NCBI RefSeq assembly: GCF_039839785.1
Contig: NZ_JBDOQT010000002.1
Location: 434,001 to 498,000, forward strand
Length of the DNA: 64,000 nucleotides
Origin: Pelagibius sp. CAU 1746
GTDB taxonomy: Bacteria > Pseudomonadota > Alphaproteobacteria > Kiloniellales > Kiloniellaceae
Direction of reading: 5' to 3'
How positions within the stretch are numbered: the stretch's first letter is position 1; each line of letters opens with the position of its first letter. Position numbers and translations under genes: made by a program. Of this stretch, positions 14,770 to 21,379 are shown piece by piece. Under the pieces are notes generated by a model. That model did not search any database, had not been told where the DNA came from, and was given only the letters and a program-made list of their open reading frames with translations.

Positions 14770-16413
14770 TCAGGAGCTGCGGCCCTGTTTCATTAGTCTT
14801 GCGTAAAGTTCCGGTTCGTTCAGAAGGGCCATGCCCAGCGCAACAGCCAAGTCATCGGAGTCCGGGTCGGGCGGACAGAGCGCGCGCTGCTCGGCGATTG
14901 CGACTGTATCGTCGGGCTCCATGGCACGTGCAAGCTGGGCATCCGGAATCAATCCCTCTCCCCGGCGCAGAGTACTCAGCAATCCTTGCAGCGATCCCCC
15001 TGGCAAAGACGTGCAGATCCGAGGTGTCACGCCGCGGCCCTCGATCCCATAGCCCGAAGGCGCGTGAGCGAAAGCCCAAGGAAGATTGACAATGCCCAGA
15101 TTGTGAAGCGAGACATTCCGCCGAATGGTGCCGGAACCTGCGGTGCCGGCGCCAATGACAAGCGCTCGCCCGGAATCCTGAAGCGCAGCGGCAGCAATCT
15201 CTGCACCGCCAACAGTGAAAGAGTCAACAACCACGACCAGGGGCAATTGATCCGACGGATCGATCCCACCGGCTTCGATAACAGTATCGGCTCCCCTCTG
15301 TCTGCTGCGCTGCCGGACCACAACCCCATCGCTCATGAACGCAGTAACAAGGGCGCGGGCGGCCTCCGGCGACCCTCCCGGCCCTGCCATGAAACCGGCA
15401 TCGATGTAGCTACCAAGACTGGACCAGTCGCGCCGCTTCGGCCCGAGAGCGACCGAAGGACTGCGCACCACGTTCGATGGCACCGGTGGCTCACCGCGCA
15501 AATCAAGCAAAATGCCCTTTGGCGGCTGGTTCCCGACATCTGTCCTTTTGGTTTCTACTGCCAAGCTCTTCGCAAGTGCACCGGCAGCAAGCTCGTTAAG
15601 AACCGGCAGGTCGTAGACCGCAACGCCGCCCGTCCGCCTGAAGGTGAAGCTGCGTGGCTCGACCAACCACCGCTGGCCCACGATCGGGGAAGGTAGCGCC
15701 TCGCCATCGCGCAGAACATTGAAGACAATCTTCGTGTCCACCGGGCCACGTAGAAGCGAGTATACCTCGAAACGCGAACGGCCTGCTGTTGCCTTGCTGT
15801 CGATATGGGTGATGACATCGTTGGTCTTCAAGCCCGCTGCATCCAGATGGCCGCGACGGTCCAGCGACACCAACCGCAGTCCCTCGGCGACCGGCACATA
15901 GGTCAGGTCGACGAGCCCGTCTATGGCAGCATAGAGATAAGCGTAGAACTCCTCTGAGGGGAAGTACCGGGAATTGCCGCCCAGGGCGCTCGCCAGGCCG
16001 TTCATGTAGCTGTCGTAGAGCCGCCGGGGTTCGATCCGCTGGAGCCGCCCAGAGCGTCCATGTACGGCAATCAGCGCCGCGCTGACGGCTTCGGCCCATT
16101 CATCAGCGCTTTCACCAGCGGGCTTGTCGAACCGATAAATCGGTTCTGTGCCGAGAGACATTGTAACGGTGCCGCCGGATTGCTCGAGAGCGAGACTGGG
16201 GTCGACAGTCGCAAGATTGGCGAGACCGGCCAACGCCATTTCAGAGACCGCCACTTCCCCATTGTAGGCTTCACCGACCTCCTCATATGCGTCGGCGAGC
16301 ACCTCTTCGACTCGACCGGCGTTTTCTGCCTGCAACTCAGGCGGAAATGGCGCGACACATCCCCCTAGGAATGCCATAGCAGTCAACAACGCCAATGTGC
16401 GCAGCACAACCAT
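14770..16413 (-). CDS. S41-like lipoprotein, probable inactive protease
   Basis: Predicted lipoprotein of 547 residues with lipobox AFLGGC (Cys19). A helical N-terminal domain is followed by a PDZ domain (GLRLVSLDRRGHLDAAGLKT) and a C-terminal S41/tail-specific-protease fold with VVVVDSFTVGGAEIAAAALQ and GRALVIGAGTAGSG. In active CtpA/Prc enzymes these segments read SASASEI and (S/T)FGKG. Here the aligned nucleophile Ser appears to be Gly and the general-base Lys appears to be Ser. ATG 16413 has AGGAAAG at the right distance; ATG 16431 is the alternative. The region looks less GC-rich than its neighbours. It may be a scaffold or binding lipoprotein. Confidence 0.75.
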   Translation of the reverse strand: MVVLRTLALLTAMAFLGGCVAPFPPELQAENAGRVEEVLADAYEEVGEAYNGEVAVSEMALAGLANLATVDPSLALEQSGGTVTMSLGTEPIYRFDKPAGESADEWAEAVSAALIAVHGRSGRLQRIEPRRLYDSYMNGLASALGGNSRYFPSEEFYAYLYAAIDGLVDLTYVPVAEGLRLVSLDRRGHLDAAGLKTNDVITHIDSKATAGRSRFEVYSLLRGPVDTKIVFNVLRDGEALPSPIVGQRWLVEPRSFTFRRTGGVAVYDLPVLNELAAGALAKSLAVETKRTDVGNQPPKGILLDLRGEPPVPSNVVRSPSVALGPKRRDWSSLGSYIDAGFMAGPGGSPEAARALVTAFMSDGVVVRQRSRQRGADTVIEAGGIDPSDQLPLVVVVDSFTVGGAEIAAAALQDSGRALVIGAGTAGSGTIRRNVSLHNLGIVNLPWAFAHAPSGYGIEGRGVTPRICTSLPGGSLQGLLSTLRRGEGLIPDAQLARAMEPDDTVAIAEQRALCPPDPDSDDLAVALGMALLNEPELYARLMKQGRSS

Positions 16414-16994
16414 CGTGTAATCTTTCCTCATTCCTATAAAACCTGAAGCTTAACTAAAGATCAGGCGCAAGGCGACTACATTTGGGACAATGCAACCTGC
16501 CAATTCAATAATCGGAATTGTGGACGTCAGAACTCCTAGAGCCGTGCCGGGGTGTCGACGAAGATCAGTTGCCGCACTGCTACGTCGGGGGCCCAGTCGA
16601 GCATCAGATCCAGCAACTCGCCGTCGCGGTCACGGCCGCCACGCACTTGATGACACGCCTGGCCACGGGGTCCGCGAGATCCCTGCCACCCCCGGCGCTT
16701 CGCGCGGAGATCAAGCGGAGATCGAAAAGGCCGGGCGGCTATCCGACAATGCCGCGTGGCGGCGGTTGCCTGCGGCTCGCCGAAGCGCATGAAATTACAG
16801 AGTACTTCCTCAGAAACGCCCCGCCCCCCGGAATCGCGCAACAAGATGCTTCGCGAATGTGCGTAGATTCACAACGGCACACGGGCGCCGCGCCCCGGCG
16901 GTGACACGGGGCTTCGGCGGTGCAGAACGGCATCGCGAGAAGCGTGAAAGACGCACACTCTGATCATGCGGTCACCGGACACAGGAGGCCCTTC
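16414..16994. other. 580-bp intergenic region, no gene supported
   Basis: The region lies between the divergent S41-like gene and the repeat-protein gene. The first 100 bases are AT-richer and probably hold the promoter of the minus-strand gene. Several overlapping open frames of about 100 residues on both strands lack domains and ribosome sites; one minus-strand frame (16536-16844) could be a gene remnant but I recognise no family. A clear GGAGG at 16984 belongs to the gene starting at 16995. Confidence 0.5.
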
Positions 16995-18584
16995 ATGCCC
17001 GAACAGTTCACCGAACTCGTCGAAGTCCTGAACAACAGCGAACAGGCGACCATCGTCCTGAACGCCAACAACAGCACCATCTCGCTCCTCGACAGCGGCG
17101 GCGTCGAAGTCCTGAACATCGATGCCGCCTCGGGACTGATGCGGCTGGGGACCGCGGGACAGCGCGGCGACCTCAGCCTGCGCGACGCGAGCGATCACGA
17201 AGTCTTCCGTCTCGACGGCGGCACGGCGACCCTGCGCATCGGGAACAGCGGCAATGCCGGAGAGATCAGCGTGCGCGACGGACAGGACCGGCAGGTCCTA
17301 AGCTTCAATTCGTCCAGCGCCGCGCTTTATATCGGCGCCACCGGCAACGAGGGCGATTTGGTGATCCGCGACGCCGAAAACCGCGATACACTGCATTTCA
17401 ATTCCGCTGCCGCCGCCCTCTACGTGGGCGTCACCGGCAACGAGGGCGACATCTTCCTGCGGGACGGGGAAGGCCGCCAGGTCTTTCACATGAATGGCAG
17501 CAACGCGGCGCTCTATATCGGTGCGAACGGCAACGAAGGCGACATCATCGTCTATGACGGCGCGGGCCGCAGCGTGATCCATGCCGACGGCAACAATGCC
17601 TGGCTGCGCATCGGCGCCGACGGCAACGAGGGCGACATCTCGGTGGAGGACGGCGACGGCCGTCGCGTCTTCCACATGAACGGCAGCAATGCCGCAGCCT
17701 ACATCGGCGCCGCCGGCAACGAAGGCGACGTGGTGATCCGGGACAACCGAGGCCGCGACATCATCCACCTGGACGGCGGCAACGCGGTCGGCTACTTCGG
17801 CGGCAGCGGCAACGAAGGCGACGTCATCGTGCGCGACAGCGCCGGCCGCGACGTCATTCACCTGAACGGCAGCAACGCCGGGCTCTACGTCGGCACAACG
17901 GGCAACGAGGGCGACGTCATCGTCCGCGACTCGTCGAATCGCGAGGTCATCCACGCTGACGGGAACAATGCCTGGCTGCGCGTCGGAATCGACGGCAACG
18001 AAGGCGACATTTCGGTCCAGGACGGCGACGGCCGGCAGGTTTTCCATCTCAACGGCAGCAACGCCGCCCTTTATGTCGGCGCCGCGGGCAACGAGGGCGA
18101 CATCATCGTCCGCGACGACGCCGGCAACGACACCATCCACCTGAACGGCGCGACCGGCGACATCATCCTCAGCAACGCGGATGCCGCCGAGCAATTCGCG
18201 GTGGCCGACGAGACCGCGGCCGAACCCGGCGACGTCATGGTCATGAGCGCCGACGGGCGCCTGGAGCCTTGCAGTCGCGGCTACGACCGGCGGGTGGTCG
18301 GCGTCGTCGCCGGCGCCGGGGCCTATCGGCCGGGTATCGTGCTGAACCACAGCCCGGACCACCGGCAGATGGCCACCATTTCCATGCTCGGGCGCGCGGC
18401 CTGCAAGGTCGACGCGAGCTACGGCCCGATCGAAGTCGGCGATCTGCTGACGGCCTCCCCCACCCCGGGTCATGCGATGGCAGCGCGCGAGTCCGGCCAG
18501 GCCTTCGGCGCCGTCATCGGCAAGGCCCTGGAACCTCTCGCCGAAGGCCGTGGCCTGGTGGCCATGGTCATCGCCCTGCAATAG
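16995..18584 (+). CDS. Beta-solenoid-like repeat protein with conserved C-terminal domain
   Basis: Protein of 529 residues. After a 54-residue N-terminus come eleven 31-residue repeats (residues 55-395), consensus GNEGDIIVRDxxGRxVIHLN then NAALYVGAx. The C-terminal domain of about 130 residues includes VVGVVAGAGAYRPGIVLNH, CKVDASYGPIEVGDLLTASP, TPGHAMAA and GAVIGKALEP. I recognise this tail as recurring in large repeat and tail-fibre-like proteins of unknown function. No signal peptide or membrane helix is visible. ATG 16995 follows GGAGG; the longer frame from 16920 has none. It is 10 bp from the protease gene, so first of a three-gene cassette. A rigid rod or fibre is inferred. Confidence 0.8.
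   Translation: MPEQFTELVEVLNNSEQATIVLNANNSTISLLDSGGVEVLNIDAASGLMRLGTAGQRGDLSLRDASDHEVFRLDGGTATLRIGNSGNAGEISVRDGQDRQVLSFNSSSAALYIGATGNEGDLVIRDAENRDTLHFNSAAAALYVGVTGNEGDIFLRDGEGRQVFHMNGSNAALYIGANGNEGDIIVYDGAGRSVIHADGNNAWLRIGADGNEGDISVEDGDGRRVFHMNGSNAAAYIGAAGNEGDVVIRDNRGRDIIHLDGGNAVGYFGGSGNEGDVIVRDSAGRDVIHLNGSNAGLYVGTTGNEGDVIVRDSSNREVIHADGNNAWLRVGIDGNEGDISVQDGDGRQVFHLNGSNAALYVGAAGNEGDIIVRDDAGNDTIHLNGATGDIILSNADAAEQFAVADETAAEPGDVMVMSADGRLEPCSRGYDRRVVGVVAGAGAYRPGIVLNHSPDHRQMATISMLGRAACKVDASYGPIEVGDLLTASPTPGHAMAARESGQAFGAVIGKALEPLAEGRGLVAMVIALQ
17157..18179 (+). repeat. Eleven 93-bp tandem coding repeats
   Basis: Eleven in-frame units of 93 bp (31 residues), starting with GQRGD, then GNAGE, then nine GNEGD units. 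Units 5-6 and 9-10 are much more alike than average (both carry HADGNNAWLR followed by EGDIS and EDGDGR or QDGDGR). This shows an additional four-unit, 372-bp block duplication. Confidence 0.85.
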
Positions 18585-18594
18585 GAGGCGCTCC

Positions 18595-19323
18595 ATGGCT
18601 TCTCTGCGCGCCTTGGCTCAATGTATCGGCGTCGATGGAGGCGATATCTCCATCCTCGGCCACTTCCTCGGCTTCGCGCGCTGGCGCATCCCCTCGGACC
18701 CCACCGGCGCTCCAGTCCAGATCTCGCTGAAGCGGCAGGCGCAGCGCCTGCAGGGCAAGCACCTGCACCTGAACGTCATCGCCGTCGGCTCCGACAACTT
18801 CACCGATGCCGAGTACGAGCGCATCGACTACATGATCTATAAGACGCGCAATATCTATAACCAGCGATCGCTGGGCGTGGGCCGCGTACAGCACTGGATC
18901 ATCTCGGTTGCCGATGCCGACGGCCTAGACGCCCCCACCAGCAAGGGCCAGCTCGAAGAACTGACAGACCGCTGGGAGGTCGACAACAACGGCATCGACC
19001 TTTTCATCCCGCACGACATGAACATTCCCTCGGGCACGGGCATTCTGCTGGGCCGTTCGCCCAATCCGGGTCCCTGCATGAGCGATGGAAAAGACAAGAA
19101 GGGCCAGGACTCGCCGGTCAGCGGCCTCTGGGGATCGGACCAACTGGCGCGAACCTCGGCGCACGAAGTCGGTCACTACTTGGATCTCGATCACAAGAAC
19201 TCCTCGCCCGACAACCTTATGTGCCAGAGTGGCAAGGCCAACAGCATTCGCAATTCCACCGACCTGACCAGCAGCCAGGGCAGCGAGATGCGCGGCCACT
19301 GCATGGTATGGAACGGCTGCTGA
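18595..19323 (+). CDS. Metzincin-like zinc metalloprotease
   Basis: Protein of 242 residues with HEVGHYLDLDH at 190-200. The zinc ligands would be His190, His194 and His200 and the catalytic base Glu191. DNLMCQS follows, with Met209 as probable Met-turn. The spacing is that of metzincins (HExxHxxGxxH), but the usual Gly is Asp here, as in some pappalysin relatives. Four cysteines in the C-terminal half could form disulfides. There is no signal peptide, so export, if any, uses another route. GGAGG overlaps the upstream stop; the gene sits between the repeat protein (10 bp) and the HEAT-like protein (16 bp). Confidence 0.8.
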   Translation: MASLRALAQCIGVDGGDISILGHFLGFARWRIPSDPTGAPVQISLKRQAQRLQGKHLHLNVIAVGSDNFTDAEYERIDYMIYKTRNIYNQRSLGVGRVQHWIISVADADGLDAPTSKGQLEELTDRWEVDNNGIDLFIPHDMNIPSGTGILLGRSPNPGPCMSDGKDKKGQDSPVSGLWGSDQLARTSAHEVGHYLDLDHKNSSPDNLMCQSGKANSIRNSTDLTSSQGSEMRGHCMVWNGC

Positions 19324-19339
19324 TACCTGGGAGGGTATC

Positions 19340-20392
19340 ATGACCACCTACCGCGACGATTCCACCGAGGCGGACCCGTTATCGATCCCCGCCGAGCGCC
19401 TTCGCGGCATGATCCGGGCTCGCGACGCGAAAACCGACCGTCAGCCCTTGCTCGCCGCCCTGAGGCTGCGCAGCGACATCACACCCGCGGAAAAGGTCGT
19501 CGACTTCGCCGCCGTGCTGCGCGACCGGGAAGAGTCGCCCTCTCTGCGGTTCACCGCCGCGGCGGAGCTGGGACGGCTGTCCACCCGCGAAAGCCGCGCG
19601 GCGCTCGCCGAAGCGCTCTCACTGGCGGCGGCGCGCGACGAACCCGAAATCGTCGTCCGCGGGGCGGCTTGCGCCCTGCTCACGGACGATGCCGCGGATC
19701 CGGAAGAGATCGCCGCCGCCATCGCCGAGCGGCCGGAATTGGCCAGGAGCCTGCGCTTCCCCTTGACGCTTTTCGCCCTGCGCCACGACCTGGCCCCGGA
19801 AGAGCTGAATGCCCCGCCGCTGGACCTGGGGAGCCTGAAAGGCACGCGCGTGAGAAAAGAGGAAGCGCGGCCCATGGCCGTCTTGCCGGCCTCACCCGAA
19901 GTCGTATCGCGCATCGCCGCGGGAGCGGCCCCGATCCTGGGCGCCGCCGAACTCGATCCCCGCACCGTCACCTGCCTGCAGTGCGGCGATCAGCAGCTCG
20001 CCGTCGCGGTCACGGCAGGCACGCTCTCCGAAAGGGGCCTGCTTCGGCTGCAACGCCGGCGGGGCGTTATCGGAGTTGTCTCGGTCCACTACCACCTGGA
20101 AAGCGATAGCTGGGAGCCCAAGTACGCGCTGACGACGCGCCCCGGTGCGAAGAAAGGGACACTGGAACTGATCCTCCTGGACACCGCAGGCACACCGGCC
20201 TTCTTGGGCGAGGCCGCCGTCAACCGCTCGGAAGTCCGCTTTTCCCTCAAGGCGCTGCGGAAGCCCGGGGCCATACCTGCCCGGCTGAAAGGCCGGGTCC
20301 GCCAGGGCCGCCTGGAATTCGACGAGGCGCTTTCCGAACTGCACAAGATCGGGCGCCGCAAGCCGCGCCGCCTGGCCCCGCCAAAGCGTTAG
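19340..20392 (+). CDS. HEAT-like helical-repeat protein of unknown function
   Basis: Protein of 350 residues, third gene of the cassette with the repeat protein and the metalloprotease. Residues about 30-165 form helical repeats resembling HEAT/PBS-lyase units (LRFTAAAELGRLSTRESRAALAEALSLA, shown in part by AAAELGRL and VVRGAACALL). The C-terminal half is predicted mixed alpha/beta with no family I recognise, ending in a basic tail (RRKPRRLAPPKR). It has no signal peptide. ATG 19340 follows GGGAGGGT. A chaperone or adaptor role for the other two proteins is possible but unsupported. Confidence 0.7.
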   Translation: MTTYRDDSTEADPLSIPAERLRGMIRARDAKTDRQPLLAALRLRSDITPAEKVVDFAAVLRDREESPSLRFTAAAELGRLSTRESRAALAEALSLAAARDEPEIVVRGAACALLTDDAADPEEIAAAIAERPELARSLRFPLTLFALRHDLAPEELNAPPLDLGSLKGTRVRKEEARPMAVLPASPEVVSRIAAGAAPILGAAELDPRTVTCLQCGDQQLAVAVTAGTLSERGLLRLQRRRGVIGVVSVHYHLESDSWEPKYALTTRPGAKKGTLELILLDTAGTPAFLGEAAVNRSEVRFSLKALRKPGAIPARLKGRVRQGRLEFDEALSELHKIGRRKPRRLAPPKR

Positions 20393-20677
20393 CCTGCAGC
20401 CAGGACAACCTCGCCGATATCTGCTTCGGTTGATTGCAACACGATAAAGTTCGCCTTGAACAAGGCAATATCGACGCCAGGCTGAAGTCGCTACCGGGCG
20501 CGCAACCGGAATGCGGTAGGTTTCCCATTTTCGCCTCCGATGCCGCGTAGTTGTCACGGTTTGAATCAACTCTTCACCAGCGATTAATGCCAGACTGGGA
20601 AGCTTTCACCGTGAGAAGCGTCGGCTTCATTGATGGGTCTCCGCAGGCAGCGGAGACGACAAAAGAGGGAGATGCGT

Positions 20678-21379
20678 ATGACACGATACGGTAGCGCCAC
20701 GAAGCTCGCCCTGGCGGCCTTGTTTGCCGCCGGCATGACAGCGGCGCCGCTTTCCGTTTCCGACGACCTGGGCCTCGATTCCGCGGCCGCCTTTGCCAAG
20801 GGCGGCAACGGTGGCGGCAACGGCGGCGGAAATGGCGGCGGCAACGGTGGGGGTAACGGTGGCGGTAACGGTGGCGGTAACGGCGGCGGCAACGGCGGCG
20901 GCAACGAATCCGCCAGCGCCAGCGGCCGCGAGGAGGCCCCCGGCCAGAACAAGCCCGAAGACGGCAGCAGGAATGGCGGCCTTGGCAGCCTGAGTGCCAG
21001 CAACGCCTCCGAGACGGCCCGCCAACATGCCGCCGAGGGCTCGCAGGTCGGCAAGATGCGCGACTACGAGAACGCGATGGCCGCCGGCGATCTGGATGCC
21101 GCCGCGGCCGCGCTTGGTTCGGCCGCCAATAAGGAGATCACACCGGAGGTGGTCCACGAGGTGAACCAGAACATAGGCATCGAGGCCACGCCGGAGGAAG
21201 AGGAAGAGGTCGCCGGAAAGGCCGAGGCGGCGCGGACCGCCGCGCCGGCCGAAGCCGAGGGTGAGCCCGGGGAAGACGGCGAGATGGCCGCGGGCGAAGG
21301 CGAAGAGGGTGACCCGGACGATGAGCCGGATGAGATCGCCCAGGCGGCCGACGAGTTGGTCGATGGCGGCGCTCAGTAA
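20678..21379 (+). CDS. Exported Gly/Asn-repeat acidic protein
   Basis: Protein of 233 residues with an N-terminal signal-like segment (KLALAALFAAGMTAAPLSV, cleavage probably near AAFA-KGG). A 35-residue GGGN repeat follows, then a helical middle and a strongly acidic C-terminus (EEEEEV, GEEGDPDDEPDE). The composition suggests a secreted or cell-surface low-complexity protein; I recognise no domain. ATG 20678 has GAGGGAG 8 bases upstream; ATG 20672 would abut that site. The 285 bases before it hold no gene I can support, only a small stem-loop near 20452-20466. An intrinsic terminator follows. Confidence 0.7.
   Translation: MTRYGSATKLALAALFAAGMTAAPLSVSDDLGLDSAAAFAKGGNGGGNGGGNGGGNGGGNGGGNGGGNGGGNGGGNESASASGREEAPGQNKPEDGSRNGGLGSLSASNASETARQHAAEGSQVGKMRDYENAMAAGDLDAAAAALGSAANKEITPEVVHEVNQNIGIEATPEEEEEVAGKAEAARTAAPAEAEGEPGEDGEMAAGEGEEGDPDDEPDEIAQAADELVDGGAQ
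20801..20905 (+). repeat. 12-bp coding repeat (GGGN)n
   Basis: Nine Asn residues spaced every four, encoded by a 12-bp unit close to GGCGGCAACGGT with only third-position variation. Repeats like this can change copy number by slippage without shifting frame. Confidence 0.85.

Follow-up and report, generated by a model that had tools for sequence, protein, structure and literature searches.

Polymorphic toxin systems are among the described systems closest to the locus reported here, and the tables of a survey of them give HEAT repeats as one of the types of immunity protein, in connection with a nuclease toxin (PMC3482391). Extracellular contractile injection systems also join a phage-derived fibre to enzyme payloads (PMC12923769). 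We analyzed a stretch of 64,000 nucleotides from Pelagibius sp. CAU 1746 (contig NZ_JBDOQT010000002.1, positions 434,001 to 498,000; hereafter the window), whose genome comprises 4.66 Mb in five contigs, and focused on three adjacent genes encoding a repeat rod, a metzincin-type protease and a HEAT-repeat partner. We see about an even chance that they form a carrier-effector-partner cassette, in which a self-cleaving fibre would carry a docked metzincin, restrained by the HEAT protein and acting outside the cell.

The three genes lie in the same direction with gaps of 10 and 16 bases, and each start is preceded by a strong ribosome-binding site at 5-6 bases. We could thereby confirm what a preliminary description of the window had observed, that is a three-gene cassette made of a repeat rod, a protease with HEVGHYLDLDH and a Met-turn, and a HEAT-like protein. 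No signal peptide was found on the three proteins, and scanning them against Pfam, PHROGs, NCBIfam and PADLOC gave no usable name, none of the PADLOC models matching. The preliminary description had also named, as a finding that would speak against it, a known family explaining each part independently. The folds did prove to be known, and it is the arrangement that is new: we found no description of a system explaining the set in the open-access literature, which is not proof of absence.

By searching 89 rod loci with six-frame profiles, we found a metzincin in 25 of them, 22 belonging to the family of the window protease and 3 being weaker matches of another type (L037, L043 and L080). Profiles of the HEAT partner matched 20 of these 25 loci, all from the window family, and none of the remaining 64 rod loci. 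At two of the loci (L055 and L027), the partner was found by the six-frame profiles. The window-family loci lacking a HEAT match were L017, where bases are masked, and L081, which holds a window-family protease outside the 70 usable partners described below and where the HEAT-like protein is recognized by eye only. The partner is also present at L130, L103, L104 and L135; with the 22 window-family loci above, these four and G152 make 27 protease loci. Leaving out L017, for its masked bases, and G152, for its contig end, the HEAT partner adjoins the protease in 24 of the 25 testable loci, L007 being counted though both genes are degraded. The HEAT gene follows the protease also when no rod is nearby (L104 and L135) or when the rod ends differently (L130), and the gene order is protease, HEAT, rod in L016 and L103. 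The third window protein itself qualifies as a HEAT-repeat protein by HEAT profile or fold; Foldseek returned nothing for it with E below 1e-3. HEAT_2 matched 10/10 partners scanned, L028 and L135 falling below the Pfam cut-off, as does the HEAT partner of L130.

The HEAT protein had been proposed as an adaptor between rod and protease. This is unlikely since it follows the protease without a rod (L104, L135) as well as at L130, and has no match at rod loci devoid of the protease. Being specific to the protease with or without a carrier, it fits the restraint of a dangerous enzyme better than the assembly of a fibre, but it may instead be a chaperone of the protease. Separately, tandem proteases precede a single HEAT gene at L023 (6452-7903), and on the Acaryochloris plasmid (L007, 9015-10311) protease and partner are degraded and the rod is still open.

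We also found that the gene adjoining the rod varies between loci. A downstream open reading frame (ORF) was missing at 3 of the 89 loci, and 16 more were excluded on visual inspection or length because the pick was out of frame, no gene adjoined the rod, or the gene was short or degraded; the 70 usable partners fall into 30 BLAST clusters. HExxH occurs in 25 of the 70, and Pfam (69 partners, E up to 0.01) recognized reprolysin, matrixin and M43 metzincins, phosphoesterase, M23, galactose-oxidase-like and PLAT domains. The pattern S[VLI]Rxx[LAIVM] lies at most 90 residues from an end in 44/70 partners (12/18 in the window's protease family and 32/52 outside it) compared to 10/225 other ORFs of the same loci, controls that were picked mechanically and some of which may be non-coding. 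In total, 61 pattern hits were observed, against a mean of 6.5 and a maximum of 14 in residue-shuffled partners. Moreover, when the first 62 residues of the protease family were used as a profile, L051 was matched at its C-terminus (E 2e-8) and L080b, L061 and L043b at their N-termini (E 7e-7 to 4e-5); none of the 225 control and 57 reversed proteins gave a hit below E 1. Judged by pattern and profile, this S-L-R module is common among cargo, not universal. Together, the shared module and the linkage of the HEAT partner indicate that these genes are not chance neighbours. The suggestion that the protease is an effector or cargo is supported as well, because unrelated enzymes occupy its place and share its end module.

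Signals are lacking on most rods and cargo. By eye, we noticed twin-arginine translocation (Tat)-like signals on the cargo of L031, L062 and L108, by which a folded partner could be exported as well, and the rod/cargo pair of L009 (Bacteroidota) looks Sec-exported, with a type IX secretion system (T9SS) sorting tail on the cargo. Among individual cargo, that of L051 (6455-8200) resembles by eye a trypsin-type protease, that of L020 (6505-8157) likewise an endonuclease/exonuclease/phosphatase, and that of L090 (6435-7778) combines a phospholipase-D-type barrel, seen by eye, with a PLAT domain, only the latter being confirmed by Pfam. L012, L037, L043 and L080 make up a second recurrent cassette with a rod, a protein of 160-200 aa of unknown type and a different metzincin; 3/4 of these metzincins match the docking-module profile, two below E 1e-4, and no HEAT partner match was found with them. 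An N-terminus of W-R-x-C-x-K-C type, common by eye to the Spirosoma protease (L104, 4428-5402) and the Cryobacterium rod (L095), is possibly an alternative tag.

The rod starts with 54 residues, which are followed by eleven perfect 31-residue repeats (55-395) and by an end domain of 134 residues with the fold of the phage tail-spike domain Peptidase_G2 of phi29 gp12, which predicted viral structures match too. Its reading as a fibre-like protein was thus borne out, with an end of the phage tail-spike chaperone type. We observed the motif DxAExF in 89/89 rod domains, at the position of the fragment boundary in phi29 gp12 and of the predicted boundary in the rod; D692 and E695, presumably the residues of the cleavage point in gp12, thereby have counterparts in the rod. 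The window rod has no match to PF11962, and 2/9 family members match it weakly (best E 0.013); we call the rod end a relative of Peptidase_G2 and not a member because the curated score is not reached. The head scaffolding family phrog_8960 gives a weak match over the whole domain (E 0.0024), in agreement with a head-decoration-like fold. In all 89 loci, the frame ends at most 78 bases from the rod-domain match, so the enzyme is not fused to the carrier. Since the rod has its own self-cleavage motif and many sets have no protease, we dropped the earlier idea that the protease matures the rod.

Two further matches were rejected. An FdtA match on the rod (E 1e-10, above the Pfam cut-off) was taken as a repeat artefact, as it covers 43 residues inside the repeats and no stretch passes alone; the other, a weak match to the rod domain elsewhere in the window genome, falls in a long frame overlapping a cyclase-like gene on the opposite strand. 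Elsewhere, the L091 rod (from a Mycobacterium metagenome genome) has by eye a LysM-like N-terminus, a possible cell-wall anchor, and rods are duplicated in tandem at L026 (4220-6429).

Across the alignment of the protease family (n = 20), two zinc-binding His are conserved, as are the Glu, the Met and several cysteines. The match of the family profile to snake-venom metalloproteinase (reprolysin) structures (E 3e-7) extends across most of the catalytic domain. The L130 relative passes the Reprolysin_3 cut-off, and the window protease alone stays below the Pfam cut-offs. By its HExxHxxxxxH motif, Met-turn and family profile, the window protein is classified as a metzincin, for which zinc-dependent proteolysis is predicted.

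Using five rod ends as seeds, we scanned 84,980 species genomes and confirmed 404 relatives. The best 80 of these 404 come from several proteobacterial classes, Actinomycetota, Cyanobacteria, Acidobacteria, Nitrospira, Bacteroidetes, Chloroflexi-type groups, Verrucomicrobiota, Bacilli and archaea. Counting the seeds, the rod occurs as 3 strong and 2 weak cases among 385 genomes of the window's class, and in 3/292 genomes of the phylum to which the cyanobacterium Nodosilinea (G445) belongs. It is also found on 9 of 72,556 plasmid records, where the genes inspected are annotated as hypothetical or have no annotation. Such a rare and patchy distribution, with nine plasmids, fits a conflict gene better than a housekeeping one.

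Among 318 genomes of the window's class, the protease was found in G000, G152 and, for part of the profile, G302 (E below 1e-12). Among 292 genomes of the cyanobacterial phylum, it was found at full length in G445 and G558, 49 others giving short weak matches. The full-length HEAT family adjoins it in G445 and G558, and 265 other genomes have weaker, mostly short repeat matches. G000 and G445 being seeds, the independent cases are G152 (rod and protease, the contig ending before the partner could be scored), G558 (rod with an S74 end, protease and partner) and G302 (a partner and a protease whose N-terminal domain differs, without a rod). With three proteases and two HEAT proteins as tblastn queries against plasmids, we found the whole cassette on plasmid SC52, the rod with degraded genes on an Acaryochloris plasmid, protease, HEAT and rod on an S. 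avidinii plasmid, and on a Spirosoma plasmid a protease with a different N-terminal domain and HEAT, without a rod within 5 kb. A partial match on an Aliiroseovarius plasmid (E 0.07) was taken as chance. The three genes do recur as a set in widely different organisms. The preliminary description had named homologues lying mostly apart as the finding that would speak against it; this was tested in part, and they are mostly together, the partner adjoining the protease at 24/25 testable loci.

In the mechanism that we propose, the first gene would give rise to a beta-repeat fibre, probably trimeric by analogy with phi29 gp12, the end of which would serve as an intramolecular chaperone and cut itself off between A395 and D396 after the fibre folds. 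The second gene would produce a metzincin endopeptidase, as its motif and homology suggest, docking on the carrier by its N-terminal S-[VLI]-R module. The HEAT protein may bind and restrain this protease inside the producer, as an inhibitor or immunity protein. The loaded fibre would act outside the cell, with Tat-like and Sec signals suggesting export in some hosts, and lysis or another system possibly serving in others, and other hosts would put other enzymes on the same carrier. This follows the carrier/effector/specific-partner pattern in that HEAT follows the protease whatever the carrier, the carrier end is replaceable by a different self-cleaving chaperone, and so is the cargo by other enzymes, many of them retaining the module. 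Going further, it is possible, a little short of an even chance, that we are dealing with an undescribed protein-delivery system that moves horizontally and occurs in both bacteria and archaea. Without a phage or recognized secretion machine, it would use a self-processing phage-type fibre to take up interchangeable, mostly signal-less enzymes, all via one short docking module. Each dangerous cargo would be held in check by a partner of its own, HEAT in the case of this metzincin family.

Several points weigh against this scheme. The independent sample of co-occurrence is small, with three cases. The sequence match to gp12 is weak on its own, so the case lies in the fold, the motif position and full conservation, and the latter was counted among relatives chosen by similarity. 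Finally, the link of the rod to contractile injection systems is loose, the window genome having no Pvc16_N.

A fibre for display and not a weapon, showing hydrolases at the surface or matrix for feeding or remodelling while HEAT would assist the folding or assembly of the protease, is unlikely, although not negligible. Hydrolases and oxidases do make up most of the named cargo (phosphoesterase, M23, galactose-oxidase-like, metzincins), and the Sec-like L009 pair with its T9SS sorting tail and the Tat-like cargo of L031, L062 and L108 would suit it. However, the specificity of HEAT for the protease, with or without a carrier, suits enzyme restraint better than assembly, and the rarity, patchiness and nine plasmids suit a conflict gene better than housekeeping. 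We consider improbable a purely intracellular system, for instance abortive infection in which the fibre senses a phage component and frees the protease from a HEAT inhibitor. Signals are indeed lacking on most rods and cargo, and the HEAT partner could be an inhibitor, but M23 peptidases, galactose-oxidase-like enzymes and cysteine-rich metzincins, all represented among the cargo, are enzyme types that act outside cells, and the three proteins match no PADLOC model.

Just as improbable, in our view, is that the genes supply a contractile injection system, extracellular or cytoplasmic and encoded elsewhere in the genome, with its payload and its fibre. The marker PF14065 (Pvc16_N), tested in 48 of the 80 genomes with rod relatives, is present in 17/48, and in Actinomycetota in 6/16 rod genomes compared to 22/246 sampled genomes, although rod genomes may simply be larger. 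In contrast, it is absent from 31/48, and the search for contractile-injection genes advised by the preliminary description found no PF14065 in the window genome. A domesticated prophage tail fibre with chance neighbours is very improbable and already largely contradicted. It would account for the tail-spike fold and the matching predicted viral structures, but tblastn of the rod end against 50,697 phage records gave no match, tblastn of the protease against phages gave nothing, and viral-contig scans confirmed no close relative. Clustering the neighbours of the 89 loci yielded no recurrent family other than rods, cargo, partners and generic genes, the clusters not being profile-named, and no phage-like family among clusters of at least 3 loci, the neighbours not having been scanned with phage profiles. 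Nor would chance neighbours account for the module shared among cargo or for the linkage of the partner.

Table 1. Positions in the window of the cassette genes and their features (residues refer to the encoded proteins).
Feature	Position	Strand	Basis
Ribosome-binding site AGGAGG, rod gene	16983..16988	+	sequence
Rod (fibre) gene, 529 aa	16995..18584	+	
Eleven exact 31-residue repeats, residues 55-395	17157..18179	+	
C-terminal self-cleaving-chaperone-like domain, residues 396-529	18180..18581	+	
Predicted cut A395/D396; motif D396-x-A398-E399-x-F401 at start of rod end domain			
Ribosome-binding site AGGAGG, protease gene	18583..18588	+	
Metzincin-type protease gene, 242 aa	18595..19323	+	
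N-terminal S-L-R module, ~residues 1-62 of protease, proposed docking tag	18595..18780	+	
Zinc-binding motif HEVGHYLDLDH, residues 190-200	19162..19194	+	
Met-turn methionine M209	19219..19221	+	
Ribosome-binding site GGGAGG, third gene	19329..19334	+	
HEAT-repeat partner gene, 350 aa	19340..20392	+	
HEAT-like helical repeats, residues 36-156	19445..19807	+	
C-terminal beta-rich domain, residues 176-333	19865..20338	+	

Around the cassette, the outer neighbours resemble by eye ordinary metabolic or transport genes. A stretch of 37 bases (16611-16647) in the unassigned upstream region 16490-16904 is 89% identical to 19991-20027 within the third gene and is perhaps the remnant of a related gene. 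The ORF directly after the cassette (20630-21379) shows, by eye, a long tandem repeat rich in GGN and may have a signal peptide, and before the cassette, divergent on the minus strand (14770-16431), lies a gene for a lipoprotein-like peptidase resembling by eye C-terminal-processing (S41) proteases.

If our reading is true, many bacterial phyla and archaea would harbour modular systems, for effectors or display, of a class hidden until now, and a phage tail-spike chaperone would have been reused outside phages beside enzymatic partners. The end domain of the carrier, like the S-L-R module, would offer simple sequence handles for finding further cargo, including unknown enzyme types, and both could be tested for hanging proteins on a self-trimming fibre. 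An evolutionary test is also at hand, as one cassette swaps the chaperone end of the carrier for the analogous S74 with the cargo pair unchanged.

Compared to known systems, the rod end shares with the C-terminal domain of phi29 gp12 (Peptidase_G2, PF11962) its fold, its position at the fibre end and DxAExF at the fragment boundary, whereas here the gene is bacterial or archaeal, has no match in phage records, stays below the Pfam cut-off and is paired with cargo genes. The tail-spike S74 chaperones (PF13884) provide the end of the L130 cassette in place of the G2-like one, but they are a different family, not found in the window's rod. Like reprolysin/M12B and M43 metzincins, the protease has HExxHxxxxxH, a Met-turn and a profile match to snake-venom metalloproteinases; unlike them, it has an N-terminal S-L-R module and no recognized prodomain. 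Extracellular contractile injection systems differ by their marker PF14065, which the window genome does not have. Polymorphic toxin systems (PMC3482391) share the carrier, the variable effector and the specific partner gene, and an effector followed by its specific partner was found at 24/25 testable protease loci, toxicity and immunity being predicted. In contrast to these systems, with no known secretion system recognized, carrier and effector are here separate genes, joined by a proposed docking module.
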